From Ectocarpus siliculosus (lineage: Eukaryota > Sar > Phaeophyceae > Ectocarpales > Ectocarpaceae), in NCBI GenBank assembly GCA_000310025.1, contig FN648707.1, forward strand, positions 1,544,706-1,591,957: a stretch of 47,252 nucleotides of DNA, given 5' to 3'. A program made the position numbers and the translations under genes. How positions within the stretch are numbered: position 1 is the stretch's first letter; the number at the start of each line of letters is the position of its first letter. Below are positions 17,690-47,127 of the stretch, one piece after another. Under the pieces are notes generated by a model, which was not told the DNA's origin, searched no databases, and was given only the letters and a program-made list of their open reading frames with translations.

Positions 17690-20058
17690 GAACCGCGGAG
17701 ACGCCGCACGCAGGGGTGGTGTGAGACCCCAGAGACGAGAGCAGTGCTGGAGGAGGCCCTTACCACACGGCGGGAAGCGCGCCGGGCGATGAGGGGCAAC
17801 TGGAACTCAGCAACGTGGAGAACTCTCAAAGCAGCGTGTAAGGGAGTGGCTACAGCAGTCGAAACGGGCATTTATGCCCACCTGGACGGATATGTGACTG
17901 AACTGGAAGCAATCTACAAAGATCGCGACATGAGAGGACTGTACCAACACCTCAAGAGATCAGTGGGCCTCAGCGGGGACAAGCGGGGGGACAGCAGTTC
18001 GTCGCGGATGAGAACGGCGTGTTGCTCCGGAACAGGGACGACATCCTCCAACGGTGGGCGAGATTCTTCAGCACCATACTCAACACCAAATCCCCCACCC
18101 TGAACCCAGACATCATCGAACGAGTGACGCAGCGGCCAGCGACACGTGACAGTCAACGGTTGGGAGGGGTGCCAGACCTCGAGGAGGTGGCACGGGCAGC
18201 GAAAGGCCTCAAGAACTGGAAGGCACCCGGCCATGACTCCCTCCCTGCCGAATTGCTCAAGATCGATGACGACGAACCCGTTGTCCTGAGACACCTCCAT
18301 ACCATCCTCGTCAAGGTGTGGAACGGAGGAGATATCTCCCAAGAGTGGAAGGACGCAACCATCAAGGTGCTGTACAAGAAGGGTGACCGGTCCAACTGTA
18401 ACAACTACAGGGGAATTTCGCTACTATCTCACGTAGGCAAGGTTCCCATCAAGATCATCACCAACCGTCTAAGCGCCTTCTGCGAAGCCAACAACATCCT
18501 CCCGGAGGAACAGTGCGGATTTCGACCCGGGCGATCCACCGTCGACATGCTGTTTGTCGTGCGTCGCCTCCAGGAGCTGGGGCGGAGAAAGAAAATACCG
18601 CTCTACATGTGCTTCGTCGACTTGAAGAAGGCGTATGAGTCGGTGGACCGAGAGATGCTATGGAAGGTGCTGGCCAGGGCCGGGATTCCCGCGAAGATAA
18701 TCAAAGTCATCCGCCAATTCCACGATGGAATGCGGGCCCGGGTGCGCATGGACGACGGAGAACTATCGGACTGGTTCTTCGTCACACAGGGCGTGCGACA
18801 AGGATGTGTGCTATCCCCACTGCTGTTCAACATCTTCTTCGCAGAGGTCCTCGAGGTCGTCGTTATCCGATTCAGCGAGGATGATGTTGTTCTGCGGAAT
18901 CTGGTGTGCTTGGAGGAGGGGAAGACGGAAGCGGGGGGGGGGGAGGAGACACCCCTTGACCGAGTACGGAGGGCAGTATGGGGGATGCTGTATGCCGATG
19001 ATGCCGGCGTCGTATCGAGGTCTGCAGAAGGACTGGCGAGAATGATGACCATCATCGTTGAGGTGTTCGGAGAGTTCGGGCTATCGGTGTCGGAGAAGAA
19101 GACGGAGACGCTCCTGATGCGCGCGAAGGACAAGCCGACTGCAACATCACAGCCCCCCCCGCCTCCTCCACCACTGACTATCGAAGCCGCGGGACAGAAA
19201 TACGCCCAGACGACCGAGTTCCGGTACCTCGGTGGCCTCCTCAACGAACTTGGCGACCTCACCCGGGAGATCAGCTACAGGAGCAGAGGAGCGTGGGCGT
19301 GCCTCAGGCGATATGGCCACGAGCTCTTCGACAGACCGAAAGCGCCATTCCGACTCAAGATCCGCCTCCTCCAGGCGAAGGCGATGGAGGCACTGCTGTA
19401 CGGCTGCATGACATGGTCACCACTCAGCGGCCACTATCAGACGCTGCGGTCGACACACCACCGACTGCTCCTTCGAGTTATCGGGTACAAGCGCAAGAAA
19501 GCCACCTACCGGCAGCTCTCGTACGCCCAGACGCTGAAGAGGGTCGAATGCCAGAGCGTTGAAGCCACGATCCGACAACGAAGCCTACTGTTCGCGGGAG
19601 CACTGGTAAGGCAGCCGGACGGGCGACTCCCTAAACGACTGATGCTCGGCGAGCTGGCGGGGGGGGAGAAGCCACGTAGGGGGGGACAGGAACAGAACTG
19701 GCCGAAGTGTGTGCTCGACGACCTGAAGGCATTCGGGGCCGACCACGGATCTACGAAAACCGACCCAAGTTGTCTCGGAATTCCCGTACCGAAAGACACG
19801 GCACCGAAGTTAAGGTGGACGGAAGCCGCGAAGGTGGAGGGGGGAGTACCCTGGCATGCGGCGGTGCTGCAGGGATCTGAGAGGTTCATGACCTCCTGGC
19901 ACGAGAAGGAAGAAGAGGCCAGCCGACAACGAGCACTCAAACGAAACCACAAGCCAATAGCCAATGGGGCGGGAGGGGGGCAGGAGACGGACGAGACGGC
20001 GAGGGAAGAAAGCAAACGAGAAGAGACGGACCGAGTGGCACGACACGTGCCGGATTGA
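17690..20058 (+). CDS. Non-LTR retrotransposon ORF2 fragment, reverse transcriptase (frameshifted, 5'-truncated)
   Basis: The plus-strand frame from about 18000 to the TGA at 20056-20058 encodes about 680 residues with LINE reverse transcriptase motifs in order: [82 protein letters not shown] and [11 protein letters not shown] (catalytic YADD at 18991-19002). The C-terminal region ([30 protein letters not shown]) is typical of such ORFs. The preceding frame (about 17690-17990, [20 protein letters not shown]) clearly belongs to the same protein but lies one frame away; the shift falls at the G6 run 17985-17990. Beyond it the expected sequence resumes as [14 protein letters not shown]. No apurinic endonuclease is visible upstream, so the copy is truncated and probably immobile. 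The clade is not assigned. There is no clear poly(A) tail; a T-rich stretch (20265-20345) follows. Confidence 0.9.
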
Positions 20059-24888: not shown

Positions 24889-25196
24889 TGTACTCATCGT
24901 CGTGCATGCCTTAGTCGTTAGACCGCTAACCTCGCATCCCTACACAGCCGGGACGGAGCACGCCGGGTTCTCACCGAACCAGGCTCTCACATCACCCAGC
25001 GCGAAGCTCCGTGAGGTACTCGGCGAGTCGCTTGAATGGTGCGCTGCATCCTGCTGAGGGTGTTCGGCATCTTGTGCTCACTTCCTTGGGTACGGATGGC
25101 AGCTGCATATGGCGTGAGATATTTCCTGGTGCTTCACTTCTAGAGACAGTTATAGCGCTGTGTTGCTGCCTCGAGGGTGCTTGACCAATTTAACCC
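24889..25196 (+). repeat. Dispersed repeat, copy A
   Basis: It aligns with 26502-26795 over about 300 bases, sharing for example 'agccgggacggagcacgccg', 'ggttctcacc' and 'gtgaggtactcggcgagtcg'. A shorter diverged match lies near 1285-1375. It has no coding capacity and no terminal inverted repeats. The start 'ttagaccgctaacctcgca' is vaguely tRNA-like, but I cannot assign boxes confidently. Confidence 0.65.
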
Positions 25197-26501: not shown

Positions 26502-26795
26502 TAGTGGTACATGCTGTCGTTAGACCATTGACCTCGCACCCCTACAAAGCCGGGACGGAGCACGCCGGGTTCTCACCGGACCAGGCTCTCACACAACCAA
26601 GCGCGAAGCTCTGTGAGGTACTCGGCGAGTCGCTTGAAGGATGCGCTCCACCCTGCTATGGGTGTTCAGCATCTTGTGCTTACTTCCTTGCGTACGGATG
26701 GCAGCTGCGTATGACCTGATGTATTTTCTGGTGCTTTCACTTCCAGAGACAATTGTAAGCCCTGTGAAACTGCCTCGAGGGTGCTTGGCTAATTT
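26502..26795 (+). repeat. Dispersed repeat, copy B
   Basis: Second copy of the family at 24889. It is followed directly by the 72-bp block that is also present upstream at 26278, so the two repeats may belong to one composite element of about 380 bases. Confidence 0.6.
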
Positions 26796-26879: not shown

Positions 26880-27700
26880 GAAGACAGAAGGGATAAAACT
26901 TGGCTGTCTACATGGACACGAAAATACCCTGACAGTGGGTCGGGTGTAGATCGAACCCGGGTGTAGATCGAACCCAAACGACGCAATCAACGAGTGCAAC
27001 CTGAGTTCTTGACGCATGTATCACTCCCATCAAGGGCTCCGAGCAACCCTACGCTGAAGGGTATGCTATTCTGCACGCTGGTTGTTGATGGCCACTCGGC
27101 ACGCATGCGAAAGTCGTTTCGCATCGCACCAAACATGAAGACGCCGCAACAGGCCAAAACGCCATTAGACTACAGTTACAGCAAACAGAGCCGATTTTTG
27201 TCAGAGACTGGAGGACACCGCAACTTGTTTCTCGATCCCCAAGCCACTGATGGAAGCCAGGCAGGCCAGGATGTGCTCTCGGTTCCTTGCTCTCTGTCGG
27301 AGTAGATTTGGTCAGCAGCGAATCATTCGATTGAATCGTCGTCTGCGTGATGTGCACAAGCTGTGTGCTGAAAATTATTTTCAGGGCTTCACACATTAGT
27401 CTATTCTCAAGCGAAGCAGAACAGAAAACAATCACTTTTCGAAAAAGGAACGGACACCTCGCGCATGCTAAACCGTGAGAGCATCCCGCGTACTAATGTT
27501 TCCCTGTGCACTCCAGGAGTTGTCGTACGTCGGAAGCAGCGAGAGACCGGAACAGGCGCCTAAGTAGCACTCTCTGTGAACAAACAGAAGGTTCTTTGAG
27601 ATATTGCACGGCATCCCCTTTACGACATAATCTTCATGGCACGATCCCGGCATGATCCGGGCTAGCGCCTACACCGCTGTTTCGGCTTTCTCTTGCGCCC
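26880..27700. other. No recognisable gene
   Basis: This is the upstream flank of the exon arrays. A small tandem duplication 'cgggtgtagatcgaaccc' occurs at about 26940-26975. A promoter for the array gene could lie here, but I see no distinctive signal. Confidence 0.35.
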
Positions 27701-27707
27701 TCTCTGC

Positions 27708-27758
27708 ATGAAACACGGCACCACCAAACGAAGCTACACCTTCAATTTCATCTATCCG
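27708..27758 (+). CDS. Possible first exon of the Pro/Thr-rich gene
   Basis: An ATG at 27708 opens 17 codons (MKHGTTKRSYTFNFIYP) that end exactly at a donor CCG|GTGAGC, in phase 0 with the next acceptor at 27831-27834. It does not look like a classical signal peptide, so the true first exon may lie further upstream. This is a model built only from splice consensus and phase. Confidence 0.3.
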
Positions 27759-27834: not shown

Positions 27835-30800
27835 GGCGCAAACGGCCTGGCCCAGGCCTTGGAACCCATGCTGGAGCAGACCCCGGCCCCGACGCCGCCG
27901 AATTCGGCGCGTTTAACATCTTCTACCTCACCGGCAACAGAGGCGCCAAGCCCATCGCCAACCCTGGCGACGCCACGAATCCCGACTCCTACTCCAGTGG
28001 ACCCACAGGTAAGAGGAGATCCCTCCTGAGCGAGGGAGAATTTGTCCCGCACGCAGACCATTTGTGTACCCACCTTTCGAGGCCCCACTCTCCTCTGGGC
28101 ACGTGGTCGTGTGAATGAATGACCTCTCAATCCGTGATTGGGAAGAAACTCTTGTCAACTGTCATGAGTGTTGCCGCAGAAAACGTGATTACGTGTTACA
28201 TCGGAGTCATGTCGACGAATTGAACGCGGGCGCGATCCCGCACACCCGTTCCCTATTTGGTAGATGTGCTGATTTGAGCAGAGAACGACCTTGTTTCGGT
28301 GCGCTGCCTGTTGGTTTGTCCTCGCCATCAGACACCGGGGCCGACTACTGTTCTCCAGGAATCGCCGGCACCAACTCCCACGCGTCCTCCAGTGGAACCG
28401 CACGTAAGAGGTCACTCGTAGACGTAGGATTTCTTCGTCCTGCACGCCGACCGAGTGTGGACGCGACTTCCGAGGCTGGGAGAAGGTTCGGGGGTGGCGT
28501 GCATGAACGACCTGTTGATCACCGTTTGTTTAGAAACTCTAAACGTGTATTCTGACGTCTCCGCAGCAAATACAGTACGTATCACATCGGAGTCATATCG
28601 ACGAGTTGAGGGCGGCTACGATCCCACGCGCCCTTCCCATATTTGAAAGACGTGCTGATTTGAGCAGAGAACGACCTTGCTTCGGTGCGCTGCCTCTTGG
28701 TTTGTTCTCTCCATCAGACACATGGGCCGACCCCCACTCTCCCGGTATCACCACTGCCAACTGTCACGGGTCCTCCAGTGCACGCACAGGTATGACGTCA
28801 CTCGTAGACGTAAGAACTCTTTGTCTTGCACGCCGACCGAGTTTGGACGCGGCTTGTGAGTCCGGGCAAAAGATCGCGGTCGTCTGCATGAATAACCTGT
28901 TGATCACCGTTTGGTGAGAAAACTCTTGTCAACGGTCATGTTCTGTTGCCGCAGAAAATGTGATACTCATCACGTAGCAAGTCTTAATCGTGCACGCCGA
29001 CCAAGTGTGGGTGCGACTCCCGAGGCCGGGCAAAGCTTCGGGGTCGTATGAATGAATGACATTTGATCTGCGTTTGGGGAGAACCTCCAACCGATTGCCC
29101 TGATGTCGCCGCGGCAAATGTCCTGTGTATCACATCGGAGTCCTGTCGACGAGTCGAAGGCGGGCACGATCCCGTGCACCCTTCCCATCTTTGAGGAACA
29201 TGCTGAATTGTGCAAATGACGACCTTGCTTCGGCGCGCTGCCTCTTGGTTTGTTCTCGCCATCAGACACCCGGGCCGACAACGGCTCTCACCGTAACGCC
29301 GCAACCAGCTCCCACGCGCCCTCCAGTGGACCCCGAGGTAAGGGGCCACTCGTAGACGTAGGCAGTCCGTGTCGTGCACGCCGACCGAGTGTGGGTGCGA
29401 CTCCCGAGGCCGGGCAAAGCTTCGGGGTCGTATGAATGAATGACATTTGATCTGCGTTTGGGGAGAACCTCCAAACGATTGCCCTGATGTCGCCGCAGCA
29501 AATGTCCTGTGTATCACATCGGAGTCCTGTCGACGAGTCGAAGGCGGGCACGATCCCGTGCACCCTTCCCATCTTCGAGGAACATGCTGATTTGTGCAAA
29601 TGACGACCTTGCTTCGGCGCGTTGCTTCTTGGTTTGTTCTCGCCATCAGACACCCGGGCCGACAACCGCTCTCACGGTAACGCCGCAACCAGCTCCCACG
29701 CGCCCTCAAGCGGACCCCGAGGTAAGGGGCCACTCGTAGACGTAGGCAGTCGGTGTCGTGCACGCAGACCAAGTGTGGGTGTGACTCCCGAGGCCGGGCA
29801 AAGCTTCGGGGTCGTATGAATGAATAGCATTTGATCTGCGTTTGGGGAGAACCTCCAAAAGACTGCCCTGATGTCGCCGCAGCAAATGTCCTGTGCATCA
29901 TATCGGAGTCATGTCGACGAGTCGAAGGCGGGCACGATCGCGGCCACCCATCTTTGGAAGACCTGCTGATTTGAGCAGAGAACAACCTTGCGTCGGTGCG
30001 TTGCTTCTTGGTGTTCTCTCGCCATCAGACGCCCGGGCCGACAACCGCTCAGCCGACAACCGGCCCCCCAATAGAGCCGACCCCCTCTCTCCCGGTATCG
30101 CCGCCACCAACGCCCACGCGTCCACACGTGGACCCACAGGTACGAAGTCACTCGTAGACGCGCGACGTCTTAGTCGTGAAGGCCGACCGAGTGTGGACGC
30201 GACTCCCGAGGCCGGGCAAAGCTTCGTGGTCGTATGAATGAATGACCTCTCCATCCGTGTATAATGAGAAGCTCTTGGCAACGGTCATGGTTGTTACCCC
30301 AGCAATTGTACTCCGTGTCACATCGGAGTCCTGTCGACGAGTTGAAGGCGAGGTCGATCCCGTGCGCGCTTCCATGTTTGGTAGACCTGCCAATTTGAGC
30401 AGAGAATGACCTTGTTTCGGTGCGCTGCCTCTTGGTATGTTCTCGCCATCAGACACTCGCGCCGACCCCCGCTGCTCACGGTAACGCCGCTACCACCAAC
30501 GCCCACGCGTCCTCCAGTGGACCCCGAGGTAAGAGGTCACTCGTAGACGTAGGCAGTCTGTGTCTTGCACGCAGACCGAGTGTGGGTGCGACTCCCGAGG
30601 CCGGACAAAGCTTCGGGGTCGTATGAATGAATGACATTTGATCTGCGTTTGGGGAGAACCTCCAAACGACTGCCCTGATGTCGCCGCAGCAAATGTCCTG
30701 TGTATCACATCGGAGTCATGTCGACGAGTCGAAGGCGGGCACGATCCCGTGCACCCTTCCCATCTTTGAGGAACATGCTGATTTGTGCAAATGACGACCT

Positions 30801-33800
30801 TGCTTCGGCGCGCTGCCTCTTGGTTTGTTCCCGCCATCAGACACCCGGGCCGAAAACCGCTTTCATGGTAACGCCGCAACCAGCTCCCACGCGCCCTCCA
30901 GCGGACCCACAGGTAAGGGGCCACTCGTAGACATAGGAAGTCCGTGTCTTGCACGCCGACCGAGTGTGGGTGCGACTCCCGAGGCCGGGCAAAGCTTCGG
31001 GGTCGTATGAATGAATGACATTTGATCTGCGTTTGGGGAGAACCTCCAAACGATTGCCCTGATGTCGCCGCAGCAAATGTCCTGTGTATCACATCGGAGT
31101 CTTGTCGACGAGTCGAAGGCGGGCACGATCCCATGCACCCTTCCCATCTTTGAGGAACATGCTGATTTGTGCAAATGACGACCTTGATTCGGCGCGCTGC
31201 CTCTTGGTGTTCGCTGGCCATCAGACGCCCGGGCCGACAGACGCTCTCACGGTAACGCTGCCACCATCCTTTCGCCCGCAAACGCCGCCACCAACGCCCA
31301 CGCGTCCTCCAGTGAATCCACAGGTAAGAAGTCACTCGTAGACGCGCGACGTCTTAGTCGTGAAGGCCGACCGAGTGTGGACGCGACTCCCGAGGCCGGG
31401 CAAAGCTTCGTGGTCGTATGAATGAATGACCTCTCCATCCGTGTATAATGAGAAGCTCTTGGCAACGGTCATGGTTGTTACCCCAGCAATTGTACTCCGT
31501 GTCACATCGGAGTCCTGTCGACGAGTTGAAGGCGAGGTCGATCCCGTGCGCGCTTCCATGTTTGGTAGACCTGCCAATTTGAGCAGAGAATGACCTTGTT
31601 TCGGTGCGCTGCCTCTTGGTATGTTCTCGCCATCAGACACTCGCGCCGACCCCCGCTCTCACGGTAACGCCGCTACCACCAACGCCCACGCGTCCTCCAG
31701 TGGACCCCGAGGTAAGAGGTCACTCGTAGACATAGGCAGTCCGTGTCTTGCACGCAGACCGAGTGTGGGTGCGACTCCCGAGGCCGGGCAAAGCTTCGGG
31801 GTCGTATGAATGAATGACATTTGATCTGCGTTTGGGGAGAACCTCCAAACGATTGCCCTGATGTCGCCGCAGCAAATGTCCTGTGTATCACATCGGAGTC
31901 CTGTCGACGAGTCGAAGGCGGGCACGATCCCGTGCACCCTTCCCATCTTTGAGGAACATGCTGATTTGTGCAAATGACGACCTTGCTTCGGCGCGCTGCC
32001 GCTTGGTTTGTTCTCGCCATCAGACACCCGGGCCGACAACCGCTTTCATGGTAACGCCGCAACCAGCTCCCACGCGCCCTCCAGTGGACCCACAGGTAAG
32101 GGGCCACTCGTAGACGTAGGCAGTCGGTGTCGTGCACGCAGACCAAGTGTGGGTGTGACTCCCGAGGCCGGGCAAAGCTTCGGGGTCGTATGAATGAATG
32201 GCATTTGATCTGCGTTTGGGGAGAACCTCCAAACGACTGCCCTGATGTCGCCGCAGCAACTGTACTACGTATCACATCGGAGTCATGTCGACGAGTCGAA
32301 GGCGGGCACGATCGCGGCCACCCATCTTTGGAAGACCTGCTGATTTGAGCAGAGAACAACCTTGCGTCGGTGCGTTGCTTCTTGGTGTTCTCTCGCCATC
32401 AGACGCCCGGGCCGACAACCGCTCAGCCGACAACGGGCCCCCCAATAGAGCCGACCCCCGCTCTCCCGGTATCGCGGCCACCAACGCCCACGCGTCCACC
32501 CGTGGACCCACAGGTGCGAGGTCACTCGTAGACGCGCGACGTCTTAGTCGTGAAGGCCGACCGAGTGTGGACGCGACTCCCGAGGCCGGGCAAAGCTTCG
32601 TGGTCGTATGAATGAATGACCTCTCCATCCGTGTATAATGAGAAACTCTTGGCAACGGTCATGGTTGTTACCCCAGCAATTGTACTCCGTGTCACATCGG
32701 AGTCAAAGTCGACGAGTTGAAGGCGAGCACGATCCCGTGCGCGCTTCCATGTTTGGTAGACCTGCCAATTTGAGCAGAGAATGACCTTGTTTCGGTGCGC
32801 TGCCTCTTGGTATGTTCTCGCCATCAGACACTCGCGCCGACCCCCGCTCTCACGGTAACGCCGCTACCACCAACGCCCACGCGTCCTCCAGTGGACCCCG
32901 AGGTAAGAGGTCACTCGTAGACATAGGCAGTCTGTGTCTTGCACGCCGACCGAGTGTGGGTGCGACTCCCGAGGCCGGGCAAAGCTTCGGGGTCGTATGA
33001 ATGAATGACATTTGATCTGCGTTTGGGGAGAACCTCCAAACGATTGCCCTGATGTCGCCGCAGCAAATGCCCTGTGTATCACATCGGAGTCCTGTCGACG
33101 AGTCGAAGGCGGGCACGATCCCGTGCACCCTTCCCAGCTTTGAAGAACACGCTGATTTGTGCAAATGACGACCTTGCTTCGGCGCGTTGCTTCTTGGTTT
33201 GTTCTCGCCATCAGACACCCGGGCCGACAACCGCTTTCATGGTAACGCCGCAACCAGCTCCCACGCGCCCTCCAGCGGACTCACAGGTAAGGGGCCACTC
33301 GTAGACGTAGGCAGTCGGTGTCGTGCACGCAGACCGAGTGTGGGTGCGACTCCCGAGGCCGGACAAAGCTTCGGGGTCGTATGAATGAATGACGTTTGAT
33401 CTGCGTTTGGGGAGAACCTCCAAACGACTGCCCTGATGTCGCCGCAGCAAATGTCCTGTGTATCACATCGGAGTCATGTCGACGAGTCGAAGGCGGGCAC
33501 GATCCCGTGCACCCTTCCCATCTTTGAGGAACATGCTGATTTGTGCAAATGACGACCTTGCTTCGGCGCGCTGCCTCTTGGTTTGTTCCCGCCATCAGAC
33601 ACCCGGGCCGAAAACCGCTTTCATGGTAACGCCGCAACCAGCTCCCACGCGCCCTCCAGCGGACCCACAGGTAAGGGGCCACTCGTAGACGTAGGCAGTC
33701 GGTGTCGTGCACGCAGACCAAGTGTGGGTGTGACTCCCGAGGCCGGGCAAAGCTTCGGGGTCGTATGAATGAATGACCTCTCCATCCGTGTTTAATGAGA

Positions 33801-36800
33801 AACTCTTGGCAACGGTCATGGTTGTTACCCCAGCAATTGTACTCCGTGTCACATCGCAGTCAAGTCGACGAGTTGAAGGCGAGGTCGATCCCGTGCGCGC
33901 TTCCATGTTTGGTAGACCTGCCAATTTGAGCAGAGAATGACCTTGTTTCGGTGCGCTGCCTCTTGGTATGTTCTCGCCATCAGACACTCGCGCCGACCCC
34001 CGCTCTCACGGTAACGCCGCTACCACCAACGCCCACGCGTCCTCCAGTGGACCCCGAGGTAAGAGGTCACTCGTAGACATAGGAATTCTGTGTCTTGCAC
34101 GCCGACCGAGTATGGGTGCGACTCCCGAGGCCGGGCAAAGCTTCGGGGTCGTATGAATGAATGACATTTGATCTGCGTTTGGGGAGAACCTCCAAACGAT
34201 TGCCCTGATGTCGCCGCAGCAAATGTCCTGTGTATCACATCGGAGTCCTGTCGACGAGTCGAAGGCGGGCACGATCCCGTGCACCCTTCCCAGCTTTGAA
34301 GAACACGCTGATTTGTGCAAATGACGACCTTGCTTCGGCGCGTTGCTTCTTGGTTTGTTCTCGCCATCAGACACCCGGGCCGACAACCGCTTTCATGGTA
34401 ACGCCGCAACCAGCTCCCACGCGCCCTCCAGCGGACTCACAGGTAAGGGGCCACTCGTAGACGTAGGCAGTCGGTGTCGTGCACGCAGACCGAGTGTGGG
34501 TGCGACTCCCGAGGCCGGACAAAGCTTCGGGGTCGTATGAATGAATGACGTTTGATCTGCGTTTGGGGAGAACCTCCAAACGACTGCCCTGATGTCGCCG
34601 CAGCAAATGTCCTGTGTATCACATCGGAGTCATGTCGACGAGTCGAAGGCGGGCACGATCCCGTGCACCCTTCCCATCTTTGAGGAACATGCTGATTTGT
34701 GCAAATGACGACCTTGCTTCGGCGCGCTGCCTCTTGGTTTGTTCCCGCCATCAGACACCCGGGCCGAAAACCGCTTTCATGGTAACGCCGCAACCAGCTC
34801 CCACGCGCCCTCCAGCGGACCCACAGGTAAGGGGCCACTCGTAGACATAGGAAGTCCGTGTCTTGCACGCCGACCGAGTGTGGGTGCGACTCCCGAGGCC
34901 GGGCAAAGCTTCGGGGTCGTATGAATGAATGACATTTGATCTGCGTTTGGGGAGAACCTCCAAACGATTGCCCTGATGTCGCCGCAGCAAATGTCCTGTG
35001 TATCACATCGGAGTCTTGTCGACGAGTCGAAGGCGGGCACGATCCCATGCACCCTTCCCATCTTTGAGGAACATGCTGATTTGTGCAAATGACGACCTTG
35101 ATTCGGCGCGCTGCCTCTTGGTGTTCGCTGGCCATCAGACGCCCGGGCCGACAGACGCTCTCACGGTAACGCTGCCACCATCCTTTCGCCCGCAAACGCC
35201 GCCACCAACGCCCACGCGTCCTCCAGTGAATCCACAGGTAAGGGGCCACTCGTAGACGCGCGACGTCTTAGTCGTGCACGCCGACCGAGTGTGGATGCGA
35301 CTCCCAAAGTAGGGCAAAGCTTCGTGGTCGTGTGAATGAATGACCTCTTAATCCGTGTTTGGGAAGCAACTCTTGTCAACCGTCCTGATGTCGCCGCAGC
35401 AACTGTACTACGTATCACATCGGAGTCATGTCGACGAGTCGAAGGCGAGCACGATCCCGTGCACCCTTTCCACCTTTGAGAAACACGGTGATTTGAGCAG
35501 AGAACGACCTTGCGTCGGTGCGTTGCTTCTTGGTGTTCTCTCGCCATCAGACACCCGGGTCGACAACCGCTCAGCCGACAACCGCTCTCCCAATAGAGCC
35601 GACCCCCGCTATCCCTGTATCACCTCCACCAACTCCCACGCGTCCACACGTGGACCCACAGGTACGAAGTCACTCGTAGACGTAGGAAGTCCGTGTCGTG
35701 CACGCCGACCAAGTGTGGACGCGACTCCCGAGGCCGGGCAAAGCTTCGTGGTCGTATGAATGAATGACCTCTCCATCCGTGTTTAATGAGAAACTCTTGG
35801 CAACGGTCATGGTTACCCCAGCAATTGTACTCCGTGTCACATCGCAGTCAAGTCGACGAGTTGAAGGCGAGGTCGATCCCGTGCGCGCTTCCATGTTTGG
35901 TAGACCTGCCAATTTGAGCAGAGAATGACCTTGTTTCGGTGCGCTGCCTCTTGGTATGTTCTCGCCATCAGACACTCGCGCCGACCCCCACTCTCCTGGT
36001 ATCGCTACCACCAACGCCCACGCGTCCTCCAGTGGACCCCGAGGTAAGAGGTCACTCGTAGACGTAGGAAGTCCGTGTCGTGCACGCCGACCGAGTATGG
36101 GTGCGACTCCCGAGGCCGGGCAAAACTTCGTGGTCGTATGAATGAATGACCTCTCCATCCGTGTTTAATGAGAAACTCTTGGCAACGGTCATGGTTACCC
36201 CAGCAATTGTACTCCGTGTCACATCGGAGTCCTGTCGACGAGTTGAAGACCGGCACGATCCCGTGTGTTCCATGTTTGGTAGAACTGCCGATTTGAGCAG
36301 AGAACGATCTTGCGTTGGTGCGCTGCCTCTTGGTATGTTCTCGCCATCAGACACCCAGGCCGACAACCACTCTCACGGTAACGTCGCCACCAGCTCCCAC
36401 GCGCCCTCCAGTGGACCCAGAGGTAAGAGGTTACTCGTAGACGAAGGAAGTCTTCGTCGTGCACGCCGACCGAGTGTGGACGCGACTTCCGAGGCGGGCA
36501 AAGCTTCGAGGTCTGTGAATTATTGCCTTGGATCCGTGTTTGTTGAGAAATTATTGGCAACGGCCATGGCCATGTATTGCCGCAGCAAATATGATGCGCA
36601 TTATATCGGAGTCATGTCGACGAGTTAAAGGCGGCGACGATCCCACGCACCTATCTTGGAAGACGTGCTGGTTCGAGTAAAGAATGGCCTTGCTTCGGTG
36701 CACTGCCTCTTGGTATGTTCTCGCCATCAGACACCCGGGCCGACCCCCACTCTCCTGGCATCGCCACCACAAACTCTCATGCTTCCTCCAGTGGATCAAA

Positions 36801-36802
36801 AG
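27835..36802 (+). CDS. Tandem mini-exon array 1: Thr/Pro-rich repeat protein (split gene, partial)
   Basis: A leader exon 27835-28008 (58 codons, ending IPTPTPVDPQ) lies between TTTTATCAG and GTAAGA. It is followed by 22 mini-exons, each bounded by a pyrimidine tract plus ATCAG and mostly by GTAAG, GTACG or GTATG: 28332-28403, 28718-28789, 29266-29337, 29650-29721, 30029-30139, 30453-30528, 30841-30912, 31225-31323, 31637-31711, 32024-32095, 32403-32513, 32828-32902, 33215-33286, 33599-33670, 33984-34058, 34371-34442, 34755-34826, 35139-35237, 35551-35661, 35972-36043, 36351-36422, 36731-36802. Lengths are 72, 75, 99 or 111 nt (one is 76), all phase 0. Each repeat begins TPGPTTA or similar and ends APTRPPVDPQ/E. 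With one faulty copy skipped, they give about 560 residues without a stop. AP, TP and PTP spacing recalls arabinogalactan- or mucin-like O-glycosylated wall proteins. That function is inference; no folded domain is visible. Confidence 0.6.
30453..30528 (+). pseudogene. Frameshifted mini-exon of array 1
   Basis: Sister exons at 31637, 32828 and 33984 are 75 nt and in frame. This one has one extra base (GCTGCTCACG instead of GCTCTCACG), giving 76 nt. Its splice sites are intact. Inclusion would shift the downstream frame; skipping would not, because all neighbours are phase 0. Confidence 0.7.
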
Positions 36803-37124
36803 GTCCGAGGTCACTCGTAGACGTAGGAAGTCTTTGCCGTCACGCCGACCGAGTGTAGACGCGCCTTTTGAGCCCCCCGTCTCCTCTTGGCAAAGGTTCG
36901 TGGTGGGGTGAATGAATGACCTCTTTATCCGCGTTTGGGGAGAATTTCTTGTTAGCTGTCATGGTCGTTGCCTCAGCAAACGTGCTGCGTCGGCCGTCGA
37001 TGTCATGTCGACGACTTGAAGGCGGGCACGATCTCGCTCGCCGTTTTTCAGTTTGGTACACAATGTGATTTGAGCAGAGAACATTGCGTTTTTGCGCTGC
37101 CTTTTGGTTTGCCCTCGCCATTAG

Positions 37125-37155
37125 ACATCCGCTCCCGCGTTACAGCTGCCGCCAG
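37125..37155 (+). pseudogene. Degenerate last mini-exon of array 1
   Basis: An acceptor (CATTAG) and a donor (CCAG|GTAGG) enclose only 31 nt, which is not a multiple of three; most of the repeat codons are deleted. The exon before it (36731-36802) has a weak donor, GTCCGA. A further trace near 37490 has lost the acceptor AG (ATCAC). The right edge of array 1 is therefore decayed, as is typical for array margins. Confidence 0.6.
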
Positions 37156-37736
37156 GTAGGAGGGGTCTCTCGCACACGTAGGAGGTCTTTTGTCGTGCAT
37201 GCCGACCGAGGTTAGACCCGCCTTTCGAGGCCCGCCAGTTCTCTGGGCAGATTGATGGGCGTGTGAACGACTGCCCTGCATGATCCGCGTTTGGGGAGAA
37301 ACTCTTGTCAGCTGTCATGATTGTTGCCTCCGCAAACGTACGACATGCTTACTTCGTGTAGTACGTCCGAGTCATATCGACGCGTGGACGGCGGGTACGA
37401 TCCCACGCACCCTTCCCATGTTTGGTAGACGTGCTGGGTTGTGAAAAGGACGACCACTTTTCGGAGCGCTACCTCTGTGTTTGATCTTGCCATCACACCA
37501 GCGCCGACACCCGCCGTTTGCGTGTTGTTTCGGAGCGTGCGTGTTTCTTTGCGCTCAGTGGTGTTCTCTCTGTCGACCACGCCAAGGAAACACCGATGGT
37601 TCAATAAACCACCATCACATCATCTCGTACATGGGTTCCGTCGAAGGAGCCTGCTGTTGCTCTCCCGAACATACCCCCGTTCTCCCTCACTCCACCCCCG
37701 GTGTTCGTCCTTCCTTGTGCCCTCACGGCATCGCAG
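37156..37736. other. Junction between array 1 and array 2
   Basis: Degenerate intron-like sequence of array 1 runs to about 37500. From about 37510 the sequence takes on array 2 character ('gcgtgtttctttgcgctc', which recurs at 38205). No intact exon is present. Confidence 0.5.
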
Positions 37737-37809
37737 CCACCTGTGGCACCCGAGACACCCGTAGCTCCAGTTCTGCCGGCAACTGATCCACTCATAAGTT
37801 TTCGGTATT
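37737..37809 (+). pseudogene. Degenerate first copy of the array 2 exon, running into a stop
   Basis: It follows an intact acceptor (GCATCGCAG) and reads PPVAPETPVAPVLPATDPL. The donor that should follow is ATAAGT rather than GTGGGT, and unspliced reading ends at TGA (37807-37809). It is either a dead copy or the terminal exon of the gene containing array 1. Confidence 0.5.
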
Positions 37810-38073
37810 GAGCGGGTGGGACGGGCTCAATAGAGTTCTAACGCGCGGGCGCGCTTGTATCGCGTGCGAGGGTGCGATATTCTTTGCGCTCGAGTATTGA
37901 TGTTGCCGAAACCGCGACGAGGAAAATCCGATGGCACGTATCACCAACACATCAAATCATGTCGGACACAGGTTCAAGCTAGAGCGCCCATTCTCGCCCT
38001 CTTAGAATACCCCCACTCTCCCAAACTGCAACCCTCGACGTTCCACCCTCTCCATCCCTCCCCGGCATCGCAG

Positions 38074-41000
38074 CAACCTGTGGCATCCGGGGCACCCGCT
38101 GCTCCGGTTCTACCGCCAACCCTTCCGGTGGTGGGGTTTTGGCGTTAAGTGTGTGGGATGGGGGACCGTGTCGTGTGGAGCGTCCGGAACCGTGTACGTG
38201 CCGTGTGTTTCTTTGCGCTCTGAGGTGTTTTTGTAGTCACAAGCAAGGCAAAGAATCAACAGTGGAAAGTTCATAACAAAATCAAATCATATCGGACACG
38301 GGTTCATACCCGAAAACCCATCGTCGTTCTCCCGGACACACGCCCGCTATTCTTACCGTCACCTCCGGTGTTCGCTCATCATCCGCACGGCAGCGCAGAA
38401 ACCTGTGGCACCGCTGATACCCGCTGCTCCGGTTCTGGCGCCAAGTGCTCCGGTGGTGGGTATTCGGCATTATGTCTGCTAGAAAAGGGGGCGTGGTAGA
38501 AGAACCAAATCCAAACGTATCGGACACGGGTTCGGGCTACAGTACCCGTCGTCTCTATCCCGAAACCACCTCAGCTCTCCCCAACGCCACCCCCCGTCCT
38601 TCGTCCCTCTTGATCCCTTCACGGCATTGCAGCAACCTGTGGCACCCGGGACACCCACTTCTCCGGTTCTGGCGCCAAACGCTCCGGTGGTGGGTTTTCA
38701 GTGTTATGTGGGCTAGACAGGATGGCTGGTAGAAGTACCAAATCCTAACGCATCGAACATGAGTTCGTGCTGCGGTGCCCATCGTCTCTCTACTGAAAAT
38801 ATGACCCCCCACTTCCATCCCCCGTCTTTCGCTCCTCTTGATCCCTTCACGGCATCCCAGCCACCAGTCGCACCCGGGACACCCACTGCTCCGGTCCTGG
38901 CGCCAACGGTTATGGTGGTGGGTATTCGATGTTATGTGGGCTAGACAGGAGGGCACCAACAAATCCTAACGTATCGGACTCGGGTTCAGGATACAGTACC
39001 TGTCGTCTCTATCCCGAAACCGCCCCAGCTCTGCCCAACTCGATCCACCGGCGTTCGTCTCTCTTGATCACTCCACGACATCGCAGCAACCAGTGGCACC
39101 CGGGACACCCACTGCTCCAGTTCTGGCGCCAACCGCTCCGGAGGTGGGTATTCGGTGATATTTGGGCTGCTGTAGCGAACGGGACGTCGTACAAGTAGTA
39201 TATCGAAGCCTCTCGGGTATTGGTTCAGGCTACGGTGTCCCTATTCTCATATAAGAAGCATGTCCAAGCCCTCACCAACTCGATCCCTCTGTGTTCGTCC
39301 CTCTTGGCCCCTCCACCGCATCGCAGCAACCAGTGGCACCCGGGAAAGCCGCTGCTCCGGTTCTGGCGCCAACCGCTCCGGAGGTGGGTAGTTGTGTTGA
39401 ATGTGTGCTTCACGGGAGGATGTGGTAGAAGAACCAAATCCAACCATATCGGGCATTGATTCAGGCTACGGAGTCCCTATTCTCATATGAAAACATGTCC
39501 AAGCCTTCACCAACTCGATCCCTCTGTGTTCGTCCCTCTTGATCCATCCACGGCATCGCAGCAACCAGTGGCACCCCGGATACCCGCTGCTCCGGTTCTG
39601 GCGCCAACCGCTCCGGAGGTGGGTAATTGTGTTGAATATGTCATTCACGGGCGGACGTGGTAGTAGTACCATATCAACCATCTCCGGTATTGATTCAGGC
39701 TACGGTGTACATGTTTTTATATGAAAACATGTCCAAGAAATCACCAACTCGATCCTCCGGCATTTGTCTCTCTTGGTCCATCCACGGCATCGCAGCAACC
39801 AGTGGCACCCGGGATACCCGCTGCTCCATTTCTGCCGCCCACTGCTCCGGAGGTGTGTAGCTGCAATGAAAGATAGTGTGCTTGACGGGGGTCGTGGTAG
39901 GGGTACCAAATCAAACATATCGGGCGTTGATTCAGGCTACGGTGTCCCTATTCTCACATCAAAACATGCCCAAGCCATCACCAACTTTTTCCTCCGGCAT
40001 TCGTCACTCTTGATCACTCCACGGCATCGCAGCAACCAGTGGCACCCGGGACACCCGCTGCTCCGGGTCTGGCCCCAACCTCTTCGGAGGTTGGTGTTCG
40101 GTGATATTTTGGCTGCTGTGGCGAAGCGACGTCGTACAAGTAGTGTATCGAACCCTTTCGGGTGTCGATTCCGAATATTCTCATATGAAAAGATGTCCAA
40201 GCCCTCTCCAACTTGATCCCTCTGTGTTCGTCCCTCTTGATCCCTCCACGGCATCGCAGCAACCAGTGGCACCCGGGATACCCGCCGCTCCGGTTCTGGC
40301 GCCAGCCGCTCTGGAGGTGGGAAATTGTGTTGAATGTGTCCCTCACGCGCGCACGTGGTGGAAGTACACAATCAACCATATCGCGCATTGATTCAGGCTA
40401 CGGTGTCCCTATTCTCATATCAAAACATGCCCAAGCCATCACCAACTTTTTCCTCCGGCATTCGTCACTCTTGATCACTCCACGGCATCGCAGCAACCAG
40501 TGGCACCCGGGACACCCGCTGCTCCGGTTCTGGCGCCAACCGCTCCGGAGGTGGGTATTCGGAAATATTTGGGCTGCTGTAGCGAACGGGACATCGTACA
40601 AGTAGTATATCGAAGCCTCTCGGTATTGGTTCAGGCTACGGTCCCCCTATTCTCATCTCAAAACATGTCCAAGCCCTCTCCAACTCCATCCCTCTGTGTT
40701 CGTCCCTCTTGGCCCCTCCACGGCATTGCAGCAACCAGTGGCACCCGGGATACCCGCTGCTCCAGTTCTGGCGCCAACCGCTCCGGAGGTGGGTAGTTGT
40801 GTTGAATGTGTGCTTTAACGGCAGGATGTGGTAGAAGTTCCAAATCAACCATATCGGGCATTGATTCAGGCTACGGTGTCCCTATTCTCACATGAACACA
40901 TGTCCAAGCCCTCACCAACTCGATCCCTCTATGTTCGTCCCTCTTGGTCCCTCAACGGCATCGCAGCAACCAGTGGCACCCGGGATACCCGCTGCTCCGG

Positions 41001-44000
41001 TTCTGGCGCCAACCTCTTCGGAGGTGGGTAGTTGTTATATGTGTGTGCTGGACGGGCGGACGTGGTAGAAGTTCCAAATCCAACCATATCGGGCATTGGT
41101 TCAGGCTACGGTGTCCCAATTCTCACATGAAAGCATGTCCAAGCCTTCACCAACTACATGCTCCGGCATTTGTCCCTCTTGATCACTCCACGGCATCGCA
41201 GCAACCAGTGGCACCCGGGATACCCGCGGCTCCGGTTCTGGCGCCAACCTCTTCGGAGGTGGGTATTCGGTGGATTTTGGGCGGCTGTAGCGAAAGGGAC
41301 GTCGTACAAGTAGTATATCGAAGCCTCTCGGGTATTGATTCAGGCTACGGTGTCCCTATTCTCACATGAAAACATGTCCAAGCCCTCTCCAACTCGATCC
41401 CTCTGTGTACGTCCCTCTTGGCCCCTCCACGGCATTGCAGCAACCTGTGGCACCCGGGATACCCGCTGCTCCGGGTCTAGCGCCAACCTCTTCGGAGGTG
41501 GGTATTTGGAAGTATGTGTGCCAGGCAGGCAGACACGGTAGAGGTACCAAGCCATCCGTCTCGGGCATTGATTCAGGCTGCGGTATTGCTGTTGGCATAT
41601 GTAAGCATGTCCAAGCCCTCTCCAACTCCATCTTCCGGTAATCGTCTCTCTTGATCACTCCACGGCATCGCAGCAACCAGTGGCACCCGGGATACCGGCT
41701 GCTCCGGTTCTGGCGCCAAGCACTTCGGAGGTGGGTATTTATTTTATTGGGGGCTAGACAGCGGGACGTGGTAGAAGTATTAAATCAACCATACCGGGAA
41801 TAGGGTCAGGGTGCGGTGCCCCTGTTCTCATATAAAAACATGTCCAGGCCCTCTCCGACTCGATCCCTCTATGTTCGTCCCTCTTGGTCCCTCCACGGCA
41901 TCCCAGCAACCAGTGGCACCCGGGATACCCGCTGCTCCGGTTCTGGCGCCAACCGCTTCGGAGGTGGGTATTTGGAAGTATGTTTGCCAGGCAGGCAGAC
42001 ACGGTAGAGGTACCAAGCCATCCGTCTCGGGCATTGATTCAGGCTGCGGTATTGCTGTTGGCATATGAAAGCATGTCCAAGCCCTCTCCAACTCCATCCT
42101 CCGGTATTCGTCTCTCTTGATCACTCCACGGCATCGCAGCAACCAGTGGCACCCGGGATACCCGCTGCTCCGGTTCTGGCGCCAAGCACTTCGGAGGTGG
42201 GTATTTATTTTATTGGGGGCTAGACAGCGGGACGTGGTAGAAGTACCAAATCAACCATACCGGGAATAGGGTCAGGGTGCGGTGCCCCTGTTCTCACATG
42301 AAAACATTTCCAGGCCCTCTCCAACTCGATCCCTCTAAGTTCGTCCCTCTTGGTCCCTCCACGGCATCGCAGCAACCAGTGGCACCCGGGACACCCGCTG
42401 CTCCGGTTCTGGCGCCAACCGCTTTGGTGGTGGGTATTTGGAAGTATGTGTGCCAGGCAGGCAGACACGGTAGAGGTACCAAGCCATCCGTCTCGGGCAT
42501 TGATTCAGGCTGCGGTATTGCTGTTGGCATATGAAAGCATGTCCAAGCCCTCTCCAACTCCATCTTCCGGTATTCGTCTCTCTTGATCACTCCACGGCAT
42601 CGCAGCAACCTGTATCATCCGGTACACCCACTCCTCCGGTTCTGTCGCCAACCACTTCGGAAGTGGGTATTTGGAATTATGTGGCCTAGACAGGGGGGCG
42701 TGGTAGAAGTACTATATCAACCATATCGGGCATTGGTTCAGGTTACGGTGTCCCAATTCTCACATGAACACATGTCCAAGCCCTTTCCAACTCGATCGCC
42801 CTTTGTTCGTCCCTCTTGATTCGTCCACGGCATCCCAGCAACCAGTGGCACCCGGGACACCCGCTGCTCCGGTTCTGGCGCCAACCGCTTTGGTGGTGGG
42901 TATTCGGTGATTTTAGGGCTACTGTAGAGAGTGGGACGTGGTGGAAGTACGAAATCGAAACATATCGGGCATTGGTTCAGGCTACGGTGTCCCTATTCTC
43001 ATCTCAAAACATGCAGAAGCCCTCTCCAACTCCATCCCCGGGTGTTCGTCCCCCTTGATCCCTCCACGGCATTGCAGCAACCAGTGGCATCCAGGACACC
43101 CGCGGCTCCGGTTCTGGCGCCAACCGCTCCGGAGGTGTGTGTTTGTTGTTATGCGGGCTAGACAGGAGGGCGTGGTAGAAGTACCAAATCAACCATATCG
43201 GGCATTGATTCAGGCTACGGTGTCCCTATTCTCACATGAAAACGTGTCCAAGCCCTCACCAACTCGATCCCTCTATGTTCGTCCCTCTTGGTCCCTCAAC
43301 GGCATCGCAGCAACCAGTGGCACCCGGGATACCCGCTGCTCCGGTTCTGGCGCCAACCTCTTCGGAGGTGGGTAGTTCTTATATGTGTGTGCTAGACGGG
43401 CGGACGTGGTAGAAGTTCCAAATCCAAACATATCGGGCATTGGTTCAGGCTACGGTGTCCCAATTCTCACATGAATGCATGTCCAAGCCTTCACCAACTA
43501 CATGCTCCGGCATTTGTCCCTCTTGATCACTCCACGGCATCGCAGCAACCAGTGGCACCCGGGATACCCGCGGCTCCGGTTCTGGCGCCAAGCACTTCGG
43601 AGGTGGGTATTTATTTTATTGGGGGCTAGACGGCGGGACGTGGTAGAAGTATTAAATCAACCATACCGGGAATAGGGTCAGGGTGCGGTGCCCCTGTTCT
43701 CATATCAAAACATGTCCAGGCCCTCTCCAACTCGATCGCCCTTTGTTCGTCCCTCTTGATTCGTCCACGGCATCCCAGCAACCAGTAGCACCCGGGACAC
43801 CCGCTGCTCCGGTTCTGGCGCCAACCGCTTTGGTGGTGGGTATTCGGTGATTTTAGGGCTACTGTAGAGAGTGGGACGTGGTGGAAGTACGAAATCGAAA
43901 CATATCGGGCATTGGTTCAGGCTACGGTGTCCCTATTCTCATCTCAAAACATGCAGAAGCCCTCTCCAACTCCATCCCCGGGCGTTCGTCCCTCTTGATC

Positions 44001-47000
44001 CCTCCACGGCATTGCAGCAACCAGTGGCATCCAGGACACCCGCGGCTCCGGTTCTGGCGCCAACCGCTCCGGAGGTGTGTGTTTGTTGTTATGCGGGCTA
44101 GACAGGGGGGCGTGGTAGAAGTACCAAATCAACCATATCGGGCATTGATTCAGGCTACGGTGTCCCAATTCTCACATGAAAACATGTCCAAGCCCTCACC
44201 AACTCGATCCCTCTGTGTACGTCCCTCTTGGTCCCTCAACGGCATCGCAGCAACCAGTGGCACCCGGGATACCCGCTGCTCCGGTTCTGGAGCCAACCGC
44301 TTCGGAGGTGGGTATTTGGAAGTATGTGTGCCAGGCAGGCAGACACGGTAGAGGTACCAAGCCATCCGTCTCGGGCATTGATTCAGGCTGCGGTATTGCT
44401 GTTGGCATATGAAAGCATGTCCAAGCCCTCTCCAACTCCATCCTCCGGTGTTCGTCTCTCTTGATCACTCCACGGCATCGCAGCAACCAGTGGCACCCGG
44501 GATACCCGCTGCCCCGGTTCTGGCGCCAAGCACTTCGGAGGTGGGTATTTGTTTTATTGGGGGCTAGACAGCGGGACGTGGTAGAAGTATTAAATCAACC
44601 ATACCGGGAATAGGGTCAGGGTGCGGTGCCCCTGTTCTCATATAAAAACATGTCCAGGCCCTCTCCAACTCGATCCCTCTATGTTCGTCCCTCTTGGTCC
44701 CTCAACGGCATCGCAGCAACCAGTGGCACCCGGGACACCCGCTGCTCCGGTTCTGGCACCAACCGCTTTGGTGGTGGGTATTCGGTGATTTTAGGGCTAC
44801 TGTAGAGAGTGGGACGTGGTGGAAGTACGAAATCGAAACATATCGGGCATTGGTTCAGGCTACGGTGTCCCTATTCTCATCTCAAAACATGCAGAAGCCC
44901 TCTCCAACTCCATCCCCGGGCGTTCGTCCCTCTTGATCCCTCCACGGCATTGCAGCAACCAGTGGCATCCAGGACACCCGCGGCTCCGGTTCTGGCGCCA
45001 ACCGCTCCGGAGGTGTGTGTTTGGTGTTATGCGGGCTAGACAGGGGGGCGTGGTAGAAGTACCAAATCAACCATATCGGGCATTGATTCAGGCTACGGTG
45101 TCCCAATTCTCACATGAAAACATGTCCAAGCCCTCTCCACCTCTATCTCTCTGTGTACGTCCCTTTCGATCCTTCCACGGCATTGCAGCAACCAGTGGCA
45201 CCCGGGATACCCGCTGCCCCGGTTCTGGCGCCAAGCACTTCGGAGGTGGGTATTTGTTTTATTGGGGGCTAGACAGCGGGACGTGGTAGAAGCATTAAAT
45301 CAACCATACCGGGAATAGGGTCAGGGTGCGGTGCCCCTGTTCTCATATAAAAACATGTCCAGGCCCTCTCCAACTCGATCCCTCTATGTTCGTCCCTCTT
45401 GGTCCCTCAACGGCATCGCAGCAACCAGTGGCACCCGGGACACCCGCTGCTCCGGTTCTGGCGCCAACCGCTTTGGTGGTGAGTATTCGGTGATTTTAGG
45501 GCTACTGTAGAGAGTGGGACGTGGTGGAAGTACGAAATCGAAACATATCGGGCATTGGTTCAGGCTACGGTGTCCCTATTCTCATCTCAAAACATGCAGA
45601 AGCCCTCTCCAACTCCATCCCCGGGCGTTCGTCCCTCTTGATCCCTCCACGGCATTGCAGCAACCAGTGGCATCCAGGACACCCGCTGCTCCGGTTCTGG
45701 CGCCAACCGCTCCGGAGGTGTGTGTTTGTTGTTATGCGGGCTAGACAGGGGGGCGTGGTAGAAGTACCAAATCAACCATATCGGGCATTGATTCAGGCTA
45801 CGGTGTCCCAATTCTCACATGAAAACATGTCCAAGCCCTCTCCAACTCCATCCTCCGGTATTCGTCTCTCTTGATCACTCCACGGCATCGCAGCAACCAG
45901 TGGCACCCGGGATACCCGCTGCCCCGGTTCTGGCGCCAAGCACTTCGGAGGTGGGTATTTGTTTTATTGGGGGCTAGACAGCGGGACGTGGTAGAAGCAT
46001 TAAATCAACCATACCGGGAATAGGGTCAGGGTGCGGTGCCCCTGTTCTCATATAAAAACATGTCCAGGCCCTCTCCAACTCGATCCCTCTATGTTCGTCC
46101 CTCTTGGTCCCTCAACGGCATCGCAGCAACCAGTGGCACCCGGGACACCCGCTGCTCCGGTTCTGGCGCCAACCGCTTTGGTGGTGGGTATTCGGTGATT
46201 TTAGGGCTACTGTAGAGAGTGGGACGTGGTGGAAGTACGAAATCGAAACATATCGGGCATTGATTCAGGCTACGGTGTCCCAATTCTCACATGAAAACAT
46301 GTCCAAGCCCTCTCCACCTCTATCTCTCTGTGTACGTCCCTCTTGATCCTTCCACGGCATCGCAGCAACCAGTGGCACCCGGGATACCCGCTGCCCCGGT
46401 TCTGGCGCCAAGCACTTCGGAGGTGGGTATTTGTTTTATTGGGGGCTAGACAGCGGGACGTGGTAGAAGCATTAAATCAACCGTACCGGGAATAGCGTCA
46501 GGGTGCGGTGCCCCTGTTCTCATATAAACACATGTCCAGGCCCTCTCCAACTCGATCGCCCTTTGTTCGTCCCTCTTGATTCATCCACGGCATCCCAGCA
46601 ACCAGTGGCACCCGGGACACCCGCTGCTCCGGTTCTGGCGCCAACCGCTTTGGTGGTGGGTATTCGGTGATTTTAGGGCTACTGTAGAGAGTGGGACGTG
46701 GTGGAAGTACGAAATCGAAACATATCGGGCATTGGTTCAGGCTACGGTGTCCCTATTCTCATCTCAAAACATGCAGAAGCCCTCTCCAACTCCATCCCCG
46801 GGCGTTCGTCCCTCTTGATCCCTCCACGGCATTGCAGCAACCAGTGGCATCCAGGACACCCGCGGCTCCGGTTCTGGCGCCAACCGCTCCGGAGGTGTGT
46901 GTTTGTTGTTATGCGGGCTAGACAGGGGGGCGTGGTAGAAGTACCAAATCAACCATATCGGGCATTGATTCAGGCTACGGTGTCCCAATTCTCACATGAA

Positions 47001-47127
47001 AACATGTCCAAGCCCTCACCAACTCGATCCCTCTGTGTACGTCCCTCTTGGTCCCTCAACGGCATCGCAGCAACCAGTGGCACCCGGGATACCCGCTGCT
47101 CCGGTTCTGGAGCCAACCGCTTCGGAG
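38074..47127 (+). CDS. Tandem mini-exon array 2: 39 phase-0 exons of 57 nt, Pro/Ala-rich repeat (runs off the window)
   Basis: Thirty-nine exons of exactly 57 nt lie between TTCGTCCCTCTTG...GGCATCGCAG and GTGGGTA (variants GTGTGTG, GTTGGTG, GTGGGAA, GTGAGTA). Starts: 38074, 38399, 38633, 38861, 39087, 39327, 39562, 39796, 40033, 40260, 40494, 40732, 40967, 41202, 41441, 41674, 41907, 42140, 42373, 42606, 42839, 43078, 43311, 43546, 43779, 44018, 44251, 44484, 44717, 44956, 45189, 45422, 45661, 45894, 46127, 46366, 46599, 46838, 47071. Each encodes QPVAPGTPAAPVLAPTAPE or a close variant with no stop, so splicing would give at least 741 residues. Unit periods vary from 227 to 240 (up to 325 at the left edge), all of the variation being in the introns. 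Function is unknown; an extended, possibly O-glycosylated extracellular chain is inferred. It may belong to the same gene as array 1. The 3' end lies beyond the window. Confidence 0.62.

Follow-up and report, generated by a model that had tools for sequence, protein, structure and literature searches.

Two adjacent arrays of repeated phase-0 mini-exons in a probable proline-rich gene of the brown alga Ectocarpus siliculosus

Spider silk genes carry one coding repeat per exon and encode low-complexity peptides (PMC9779670, PMC3522626); in the flagelliform and MaSp2 genes, the iterated introns are described as homogenised, and a role in promoting unequal crossing over has been proposed for them (PMC9779670). 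In brown algae, the ROCO genes (LRR-ROC-COR, LRR meaning leucine-rich repeat) are reported to encode one LRR per 72-nt phase-2 exon (PMC11378527). We describe here a locus on contig FN648707.1 of Ectocarpus siliculosus that resembles both systems in layout. The window, that is, the whole stretch of 47,252 bp that was analysed, contains two tandem arrays of short exon-like units, designated A and B, preceded by an open stretch designated exon 0 (27835-28008); all of them lie on the plus strand. We interpret them, with a probability of roughly 0.55, as parts of one protein-coding gene that starts at about 27.8 kb, includes both arrays and runs past the end of the contig. The locus is real and, whether as one unit or as two neighbouring genes, probably coding.

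For array A, Tandem Repeats Finder gave a repeat of about 384 bp at 28190-36856, in overlapping rows. Exons were located by a scan for the ATCAG acceptor motif itself, which yielded 22 exon-like stretches between 28332 and 36802, each with an upstream pyrimidine-rich tract ending in ATCAG and a downstream GT. Thirteen are 72 nt long: exons 1 (28332-28403), 2 (28718-28789), 3 (29266-29337), 4 (29650-29721), 7 (30841-30912), 10 (32024-32095), 13 (33215-33286), 14 (33599-33670), 16 (34371-34442), 17 (34755-34826), 20 (35972-36043), 21 (36351-36422) and 22 (36731-36802). Three measure 75 nt (exons 9, 31637-31711; 12, 32828-32902; and 15, 33984-34058), two 99 nt (exons 8, 31225-31323; and 18, 35139-35237), three 111 nt (exons 5, 30029-30139; 11, 32403-32513; and 19, 35551-35661), and one, exon 6 (30453-30528), 76 nt. 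The introns between them run from GT to AG in 21 of 21 cases. The preliminary description of this locus had proposed 22 in-frame mini-exons of 72, 75, 99 or 111 nt, all multiples of three, in a 384-bp unit throughout, every unit with a pyrimidine tract, ATCAG and a GTRAG-type donor. The 22 stretches were found, and tract, ATCAG and GT are present in 22 of 22, but the 76-nt exon 6 is a frameshift, so that 21 of the 22 exons are in frame and in the proposed size classes, and the donor of exon 22, at 36803, reads GTCCGA. The constant unit was not borne out: spacing varies from 379 to 548 bp, and the longest gap (an intron of 476 nt) contains a partial unit devoid of exon (28966-29114, a hidden Markov model (HMM) match to model positions 234-384 only). 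The proposed extent of 28332-36802 does hold an array, but exon 0, array B and the decayed units between the arrays lie beyond it.

Array B was given by Tandem Repeats Finder as a 233/472-bp repeat at 38386-47252. It occupies 38074-47252 and comprises 39 units, each with an AG, a phase-0 exon (QPVAPGIPAAPVLAPTAPE-like) and a GT, at a spacing of 226 to 325 bp. All 39 consecutive open stretches are exactly 57 nt long, on the same strand as array A. They start at 38074, 38399, 38633, 38861, 39087, 39327, 39562, 39796, 40033, 40260, 40494, 40732 and 40967 (exons 1 to 13), at 41202, 41441, 41674, 41907, 42140, 42373, 42606, 42839, 43078, 43311, 43546, 43779 and 44018 (exons 14 to 26), and at 44251, 44484, 44717, 44956, 45189, 45422, 45661, 45894, 46127, 46366, 46599, 46838 and 47071 (exons 27 to 39); the introns run from GT to AG in 38 of 38 cases. 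Exon length is thus divisible by three in 60 of the 61 array exons, exon 6 of array A being the exception. The second array, with the same layout, the same phase and a similar composition, strengthens the exon-per-repeat reading. A common origin of the two kinds of unit was considered and rejected: applied to the whole window, neither unit model found a match inside the other array.

The distribution of insertions and deletions differs between the proposed exons and introns. The 39 exons of array B show no gap at all, compared to 17 gap classes in its introns, 15 of which are not multiples of three. In array A, 13 of the 14 intron gap classes are not multiples of three, in agreement with the preliminary description, while three of the four exon gap events are. 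This last proportion is higher than in the introns of both arrays (3 of 31, Fisher P = 0.011) or of array A alone (1 of 14, P = 0.019). Of 176 well-covered intron columns in array B, only 19 do not vary, and these include the splice columns; in array A, 154 of 308 intron columns are invariant, so that conservation of the splice ends tells little there and is telling in B only. An AG..GT pair scan of array B, which took in 37 of 38 units (the longest was left out), found a single plus-strand pair 40 to 140 nt apart that is invariant in all units, and this pair is the proposed exon. In array A, four of the 12 invariant plus-strand pairs use the exon acceptor, whose pyrimidine share is the highest among plus-strand acceptors. 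Exons of array B also differ less from one another than its introns do (mean pairwise difference over 38 units, 0.110 versus 0.237), and codon positions 1 and 2 change less than introns (parsimony permutation P = 0.0002). Phase, length and splice ends look selected, with moderate statistical weight.

The two arrays compare with silk genes in several respects. Their repeats are bounded by homologous introns (21 alignable in A, 38 in B), their exons are symmetric and of a single phase (60 of 61), and, as in silk genes, introns within the locus are mutually similar and multi-unit repeats occur (PMC9779670, PMC3522626). Intron types return in a fixed order every three units in A, and every two or three units in B, where the pattern recalls the alternation of introns described in spider MaSp2 genes (PMC9779670). 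Lineage and peptide are different, the exons of the window are very short (57 to 111 nt), and intron likeness is lower: the average pairwise similarity given for the Argiope MaSp2 genes is 97.6% (PMC9779670, PMC3522626), compared to mean differences of 0.16 (A) and 0.24 (B) here. With the ROCO genes as described in PMC11378527, the locus shares one short exon per repeat, and 72 nt is also the commonest exon size in array A; ROCO exons, however, have phase 2 and code for LRRs next to a ROC domain, whereas the arrays are in phase 0 and contain no LRR. Membership of the ROCO LRR exon family was rejected on the grounds of phase, the lack of an LRR motif and the lack of any Pfam match in the tested exons. 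The window gene belongs to neither the silk nor the ROCO family. The tandem, concertedly evolving PIGSFEAST repeats of the giant matrix protein Dumpy of Drosophila offer another likeness, but were set aside as an exon-per-repeat parallel because they are described as lying within one large exon (PMC2930355).

The preliminary description had likened the array to exon shuffling in brown-algal LRR genes, and this analogy proved apt. A search of the genome for the ROC domain gave 54 matches, and 10 adjoining ten-kb stretches were examined for LRR exons. In one of them (L047, C483:59000-68999), near a ROC-domain match, six of six plus-strand LRR motifs lie in 72-nt AG..GT exons with a common offset corresponding to phase 2, and one of two minus-strand motifs lies in a 72-nt AG..GT exon. 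The row of six matches the arrangement described for ROCO genes of brown algae (PMC11378527). In a second stretch (L048), three of three minus-strand motifs fall inside 72-nt exon candidates; a third (L054) has one LRR motif, outside such an exon, and the other seven have no LRR motif.

These features suggest how such a locus could work. A short phase-0 exon together with its intron would have been duplicated repeatedly, as a 384-bp unit (22 copies) and as a 233-bp unit (at least 39 copies). In the transcript, introns would be spliced out and the mini-exons joined into a long, presumably disordered chain rich in proline, threonine and alanine. Its product could be a secreted backbone, arabinogalactan protein (AGP)-like or mucin-like, carrying O-glycans in the wall or matrix. 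The repeated introns would supply the homology for unequal crossing over, and as both ends of nearly all units are in phase 0, a unit could be gained, lost or skipped with an effect on length only. Selection would hold splice sites, exon lengths divisible by three, and composition, and would leave almost every individual residue free. The complete proposal, of a single unit with two mini-exon arrays (at least 61 exons, with further ones past the end of the contig), constrained in phase and composition and essentially free in sequence, with length as a dial set by crossing over between introns and possibly by skipping, which makes glycan-bearing matrix backbones and represents an independent stramenopile version of silk-gene architecture, is possible and put forward tentatively.

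Several pairs of near-identical blocks were detected with a gapless lag scan. In array A, where unit identity rises at lags 3 and 6, 32730-33690 matches 33886-34846 (961 bp, 4 mismatches, lag 1156) and 30566-31328 matches 34480-35242 (763 bp, 1 mismatch); in array B, 43710-44432 matches 46530-47252 (723 bp, 2 mismatches, lag 2820). We interpret these blocks as traces left by recent events of unequal crossing over or of multi-unit duplication; because of them, the copy numbers of the assembly are to be treated with care.

Within the window, the predicted chain amounts to no fewer than 1,363 residues (exon 0, 58; array A without exon 6, 564; array B, 741), and this part contains no Cys, no Tyr and no N-glycosylation sequon. 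Exon 0 itself (174 nt, phase 0, donor GTAAGA) encodes 58 residues, GANGLAQ...PTPTPVDPQ, rich in P, T, S and A. AGP glycomodules consist of non-contiguous prolines that follow A, S, T or V. In array B, 139 of 205 prolines are preceded by one of these residues and there are 4 PP pairs; in array A, the counts are 68 of 190 and 33. These contexts would suit an AGP-like backbone, B better than A. The joint share of P, A, S and T (PAST) is 63.8% in exon 0, 64.9% in array A and 64.0% in array B, all above the 50% used as a criterion for AGP backbones (PMC8658186); a share of at least 50% is found in 6 of the 272 open reading frames of at least 80 codons in the window. AGP epitopes and predicted backbones have been reported from brown algae (PMC8307928). 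The AGPs of plants and brown algae, as presented in PMC8307928 and PMC8658186, are similar to the predicted chain in a PAST share above 50% and in many AP, SP, TP and VP dipeptides, and different in that the window gene is without an established signal peptide or glycosylphosphatidylinositol signal. We know of no described AGP with exon arrays of this kind. For brown algae, the primary study cited in these papers is Herve 2016.

The genome (189 Mb, 492 contigs) was searched with exon peptides and introns of both arrays, the best candidates per query being scored. All matches listed fall within this contig: 13 for the A exon peptide, 23 for the A intron, 26 for the B intron and 35 for the B exon peptide (listed up to an E-value of 10). 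Neither array was thus found elsewhere among the matches listed, which come from best candidates only and are no proof of absence. Dispersed satellite DNA was rejected on the same distribution of listed matches. Pfam gave no match for exon 0 with A exons 1 to 5, nor for eight B exons, and the presence of LRRs, or of any other Pfam domain, was rejected for the parts of the repeats that were searched. No Rfam RNA was matched in the window at the gathering score. Among titles and abstract openings from the open literature, which leaves subscription journals mostly outside, none described a brown-algal array of proline-rich mini-exons; this does not prove absence.

Several observations weigh against the single-gene reading or are neutral to it, beginning with the behaviour of the residues themselves. 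In array A, mean pairwise difference over 20 units is 0.179 in exons versus 0.157 in introns, and by parsimony, on a tree built from introns, codon positions 1, 2 and 3 change 1.83, 1.42 and 1.75 times per site, compared to 0.91 in introns; as a control, 369 of 433 circular shifts of the exon position lie at or below the exon value. In array B, the low exon variation shows neither an excess at third positions nor any other bias by codon position, and circular shifts reach as low a value in 26 of 255 cases. Pooled ratios of non-synonymous to synonymous differences (pN/pS) in array B are 1.11 in the proposed frame, 0.50 at offset 1, where stops occur in 3 of 39 units, and 1.08 at offset 2; in array A they are 0.86 in the proposed frame and 0.95 and 1.03 in the other two. 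When changes are counted along a minimum spanning tree, the ratio of substitution rates (dN/dS) comes to 0.87 for A (15 distinct exons) and 0.89 for B (27), with no departure from 1 by binomial test in either array, and non-synonymous changes are no more conservative than expected. There is thus no detectable selection on residues, and strong purifying selection on them was rejected, given the dN/dS of about 0.9 and the exon variation. Exon divergence in A that is not below intron divergence is one half of what the preliminary description had named as contrary evidence; the other half, frequent stops, was not seen.

To the same side belong several properties of the exons and of the ends of the locus. 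Exon 6 of array A has a one-base insertion relative to exons 9, 12 and 15, to which it is otherwise identical there. Stops in frame 0 number 0 in 589 codons of A and 0 in 741 of B, but only 1.3 to 1.7 and 1.1 to 1.2, respectively, are expected by chance, so that the open frame alone is weak evidence; as proof of coding it was dropped. Offset 2 is nearly as open, with one stop in A (in exon 6) and none in B. Invariant AG..GT pairs also exist on the minus strand (one in B, of 46 nt), and array A over 20 units has 12 on the plus strand and 8 on the minus strand. Three edge units have lost their frame or a splice end. Two are decayed A units (36979-37514, HMM matches 36979-37330 and 37356-37514): the first has 31 nt, no multiple of three, between a TAG acceptor (37125) and a GTAGGA donor, and the second has AC in place of the acceptor AG (37497). 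The third is a B unit outside the 39 (HMM match 37663-37824, 57 open nt from 37737), whose donor is ATAAGT rather than GT. As the contig stops at 47252 inside array B, the 3' part of the gene is missing. Protein searches with exon 0 and A exons 1 to 12 (exon 6 omitted) and with 15 B exons found no relative at an E-value of 1e-3 or below among the 7999 and 8000 candidates scored, respectively; since these queries are compositionally biased, this is weak evidence of absence.

The 5' end is not clear either. The last 42 nt or so of exon 0 and its intron are homologous to the array A repeat (HMM match 27967-28179, E = 3e-28), and the exon 0 part of the query had no other genome match among the best 40 of 52 candidates. 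Between 27470 and 27834 there are six ATGs, none of them signal-like in the frame of exon 0. The one linked to it in phase 0 opens a weak candidate first exon of 51 nt (27708-27758, plus strand, donor GTGAGC), which is not hydrophobic and not signal-peptide-like; the most hydrophobic, at 27806, is in a different frame and runs into a stop. Another weak candidate (26641-26754, plus strand) has a signal-peptide-like start and a GTAAGC donor in phase 0. It is carried by a high-copy repeat: 1408 candidates were found at first look in the genome, and all 40 of the best 40 scored match. The window holds two copies of this very abundant repeat, at 26560-26790 and about 24940-25180. The ATG at 26641 is absent from the second of these and from the two same-orientation copies (L036 and L038) among seven other genomic copies aligned. 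No convincing start exon is found among these upstream candidates. Another dispersed repeat lies at 26959-27469, with neighbouring copies in opposite orientation at several places in the genome.

Much of this would follow if an exon-repeat gene had once been coding here and had since turned into a pseudogene in decay or into a neutral tandem array. Unequal crossing over would homogenise the copies, and frames would stay open without selection. Neutral-like dN/dS, the frameshift of exon 6, the edge units with lost splice sites, A exons that vary no less than introns, repeated elements close upstream and the unclear start exon all fit such a history. What it explains poorly is the retention of GT and AG in 59 of 59 introns within the arrays, the 39 B exons free of indels next to 17 intron gap classes, and the bias towards multiples of three in A; moreover, near-neutral sequence evolution can occur in disordered glycoprotein backbones too. 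We consider this history rather improbable. A non-coding satellite whose exon-like layout is coincidental would draw support from the fact that tandem arrays homogenise unaided, that C-rich sequence by its nature leaves several frames open, and that both arrays have AG..GT pairs on the opposite strand and the A unit has additional ones. It would, however, require a double coincidence, namely two unlike adjacent units with the same layout, phase and composition, and it sits badly with an upstream 58-codon exon that shares the repeat and with the lack of genome matches outside the contig among those listed; it seems very unlikely.

A division into two neighbouring genes, with array A ending near 37.6 kb and array B assigned to another gene, also proline-rich, leaves the coding character of both arrays intact. 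The arrays differ in unit length and peptide, their unit models do not cross-match, decayed units lie between them, and the only AATAAA of the 36803-38073 interval is at 37603, neither array containing this motif. One of the 17 ATGs between the arrays, at 36916, opens a 50-codon frame that is hydrophobic and signal-like, and it is possible that this frame is the start of a second gene, or a product of chance; this start sits in decayed A-type repeat sequence. The arrays share strand, phase 0 and a PAST share of 64 to 65%, and are 1.3 kb apart. On balance two genes appear unlikely. The exon-per-repeat reading of the preliminary description is still the best explanation and gains from array B, but it has to accommodate dN/dS values of 0.87 to 0.89, A exons at least as variable as introns and the frameshift in exon 6.

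If the single gene is transcribed, the silk-type architecture of repeated exons and repeated introns arose independently in brown algae, and the locus supplies a candidate for the core protein of glycoproteins of the arabinogalactan type, which are reported from the walls of these algae. It also opens the question of whether phase, splice sites and composition alone can be maintained in a gene whose sequence is subject to neutral drift. Repeat-masked annotation and homology searches could easily overlook such genes.

Other features of the window were recorded. On the minus strand, 5819-10599 is probably one multi-exon gene with Chlamydia-PMP-type repeats (PF02415). Over the full length of the query, the PMP part is 80% identical to its closest relative (P0001, source label lgn); the membrane part that follows the repeats is weakly TRP-channel-like, below the cut-off, as in the EukProt protein P0006. 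A neighbouring gene has a EukProt relative that is 81% identical over 24% of the query. Short tandem repeats rich in G (GGGCA, GGTC, GTTGGGTAGG and others) are clustered at 13191-14370. Finally, a 718-codon open frame on the plus strand (17902-20058) contains a reverse transcriptase domain (PF00078) and is probably part of an element of the long interspersed nuclear element (LINE) type.

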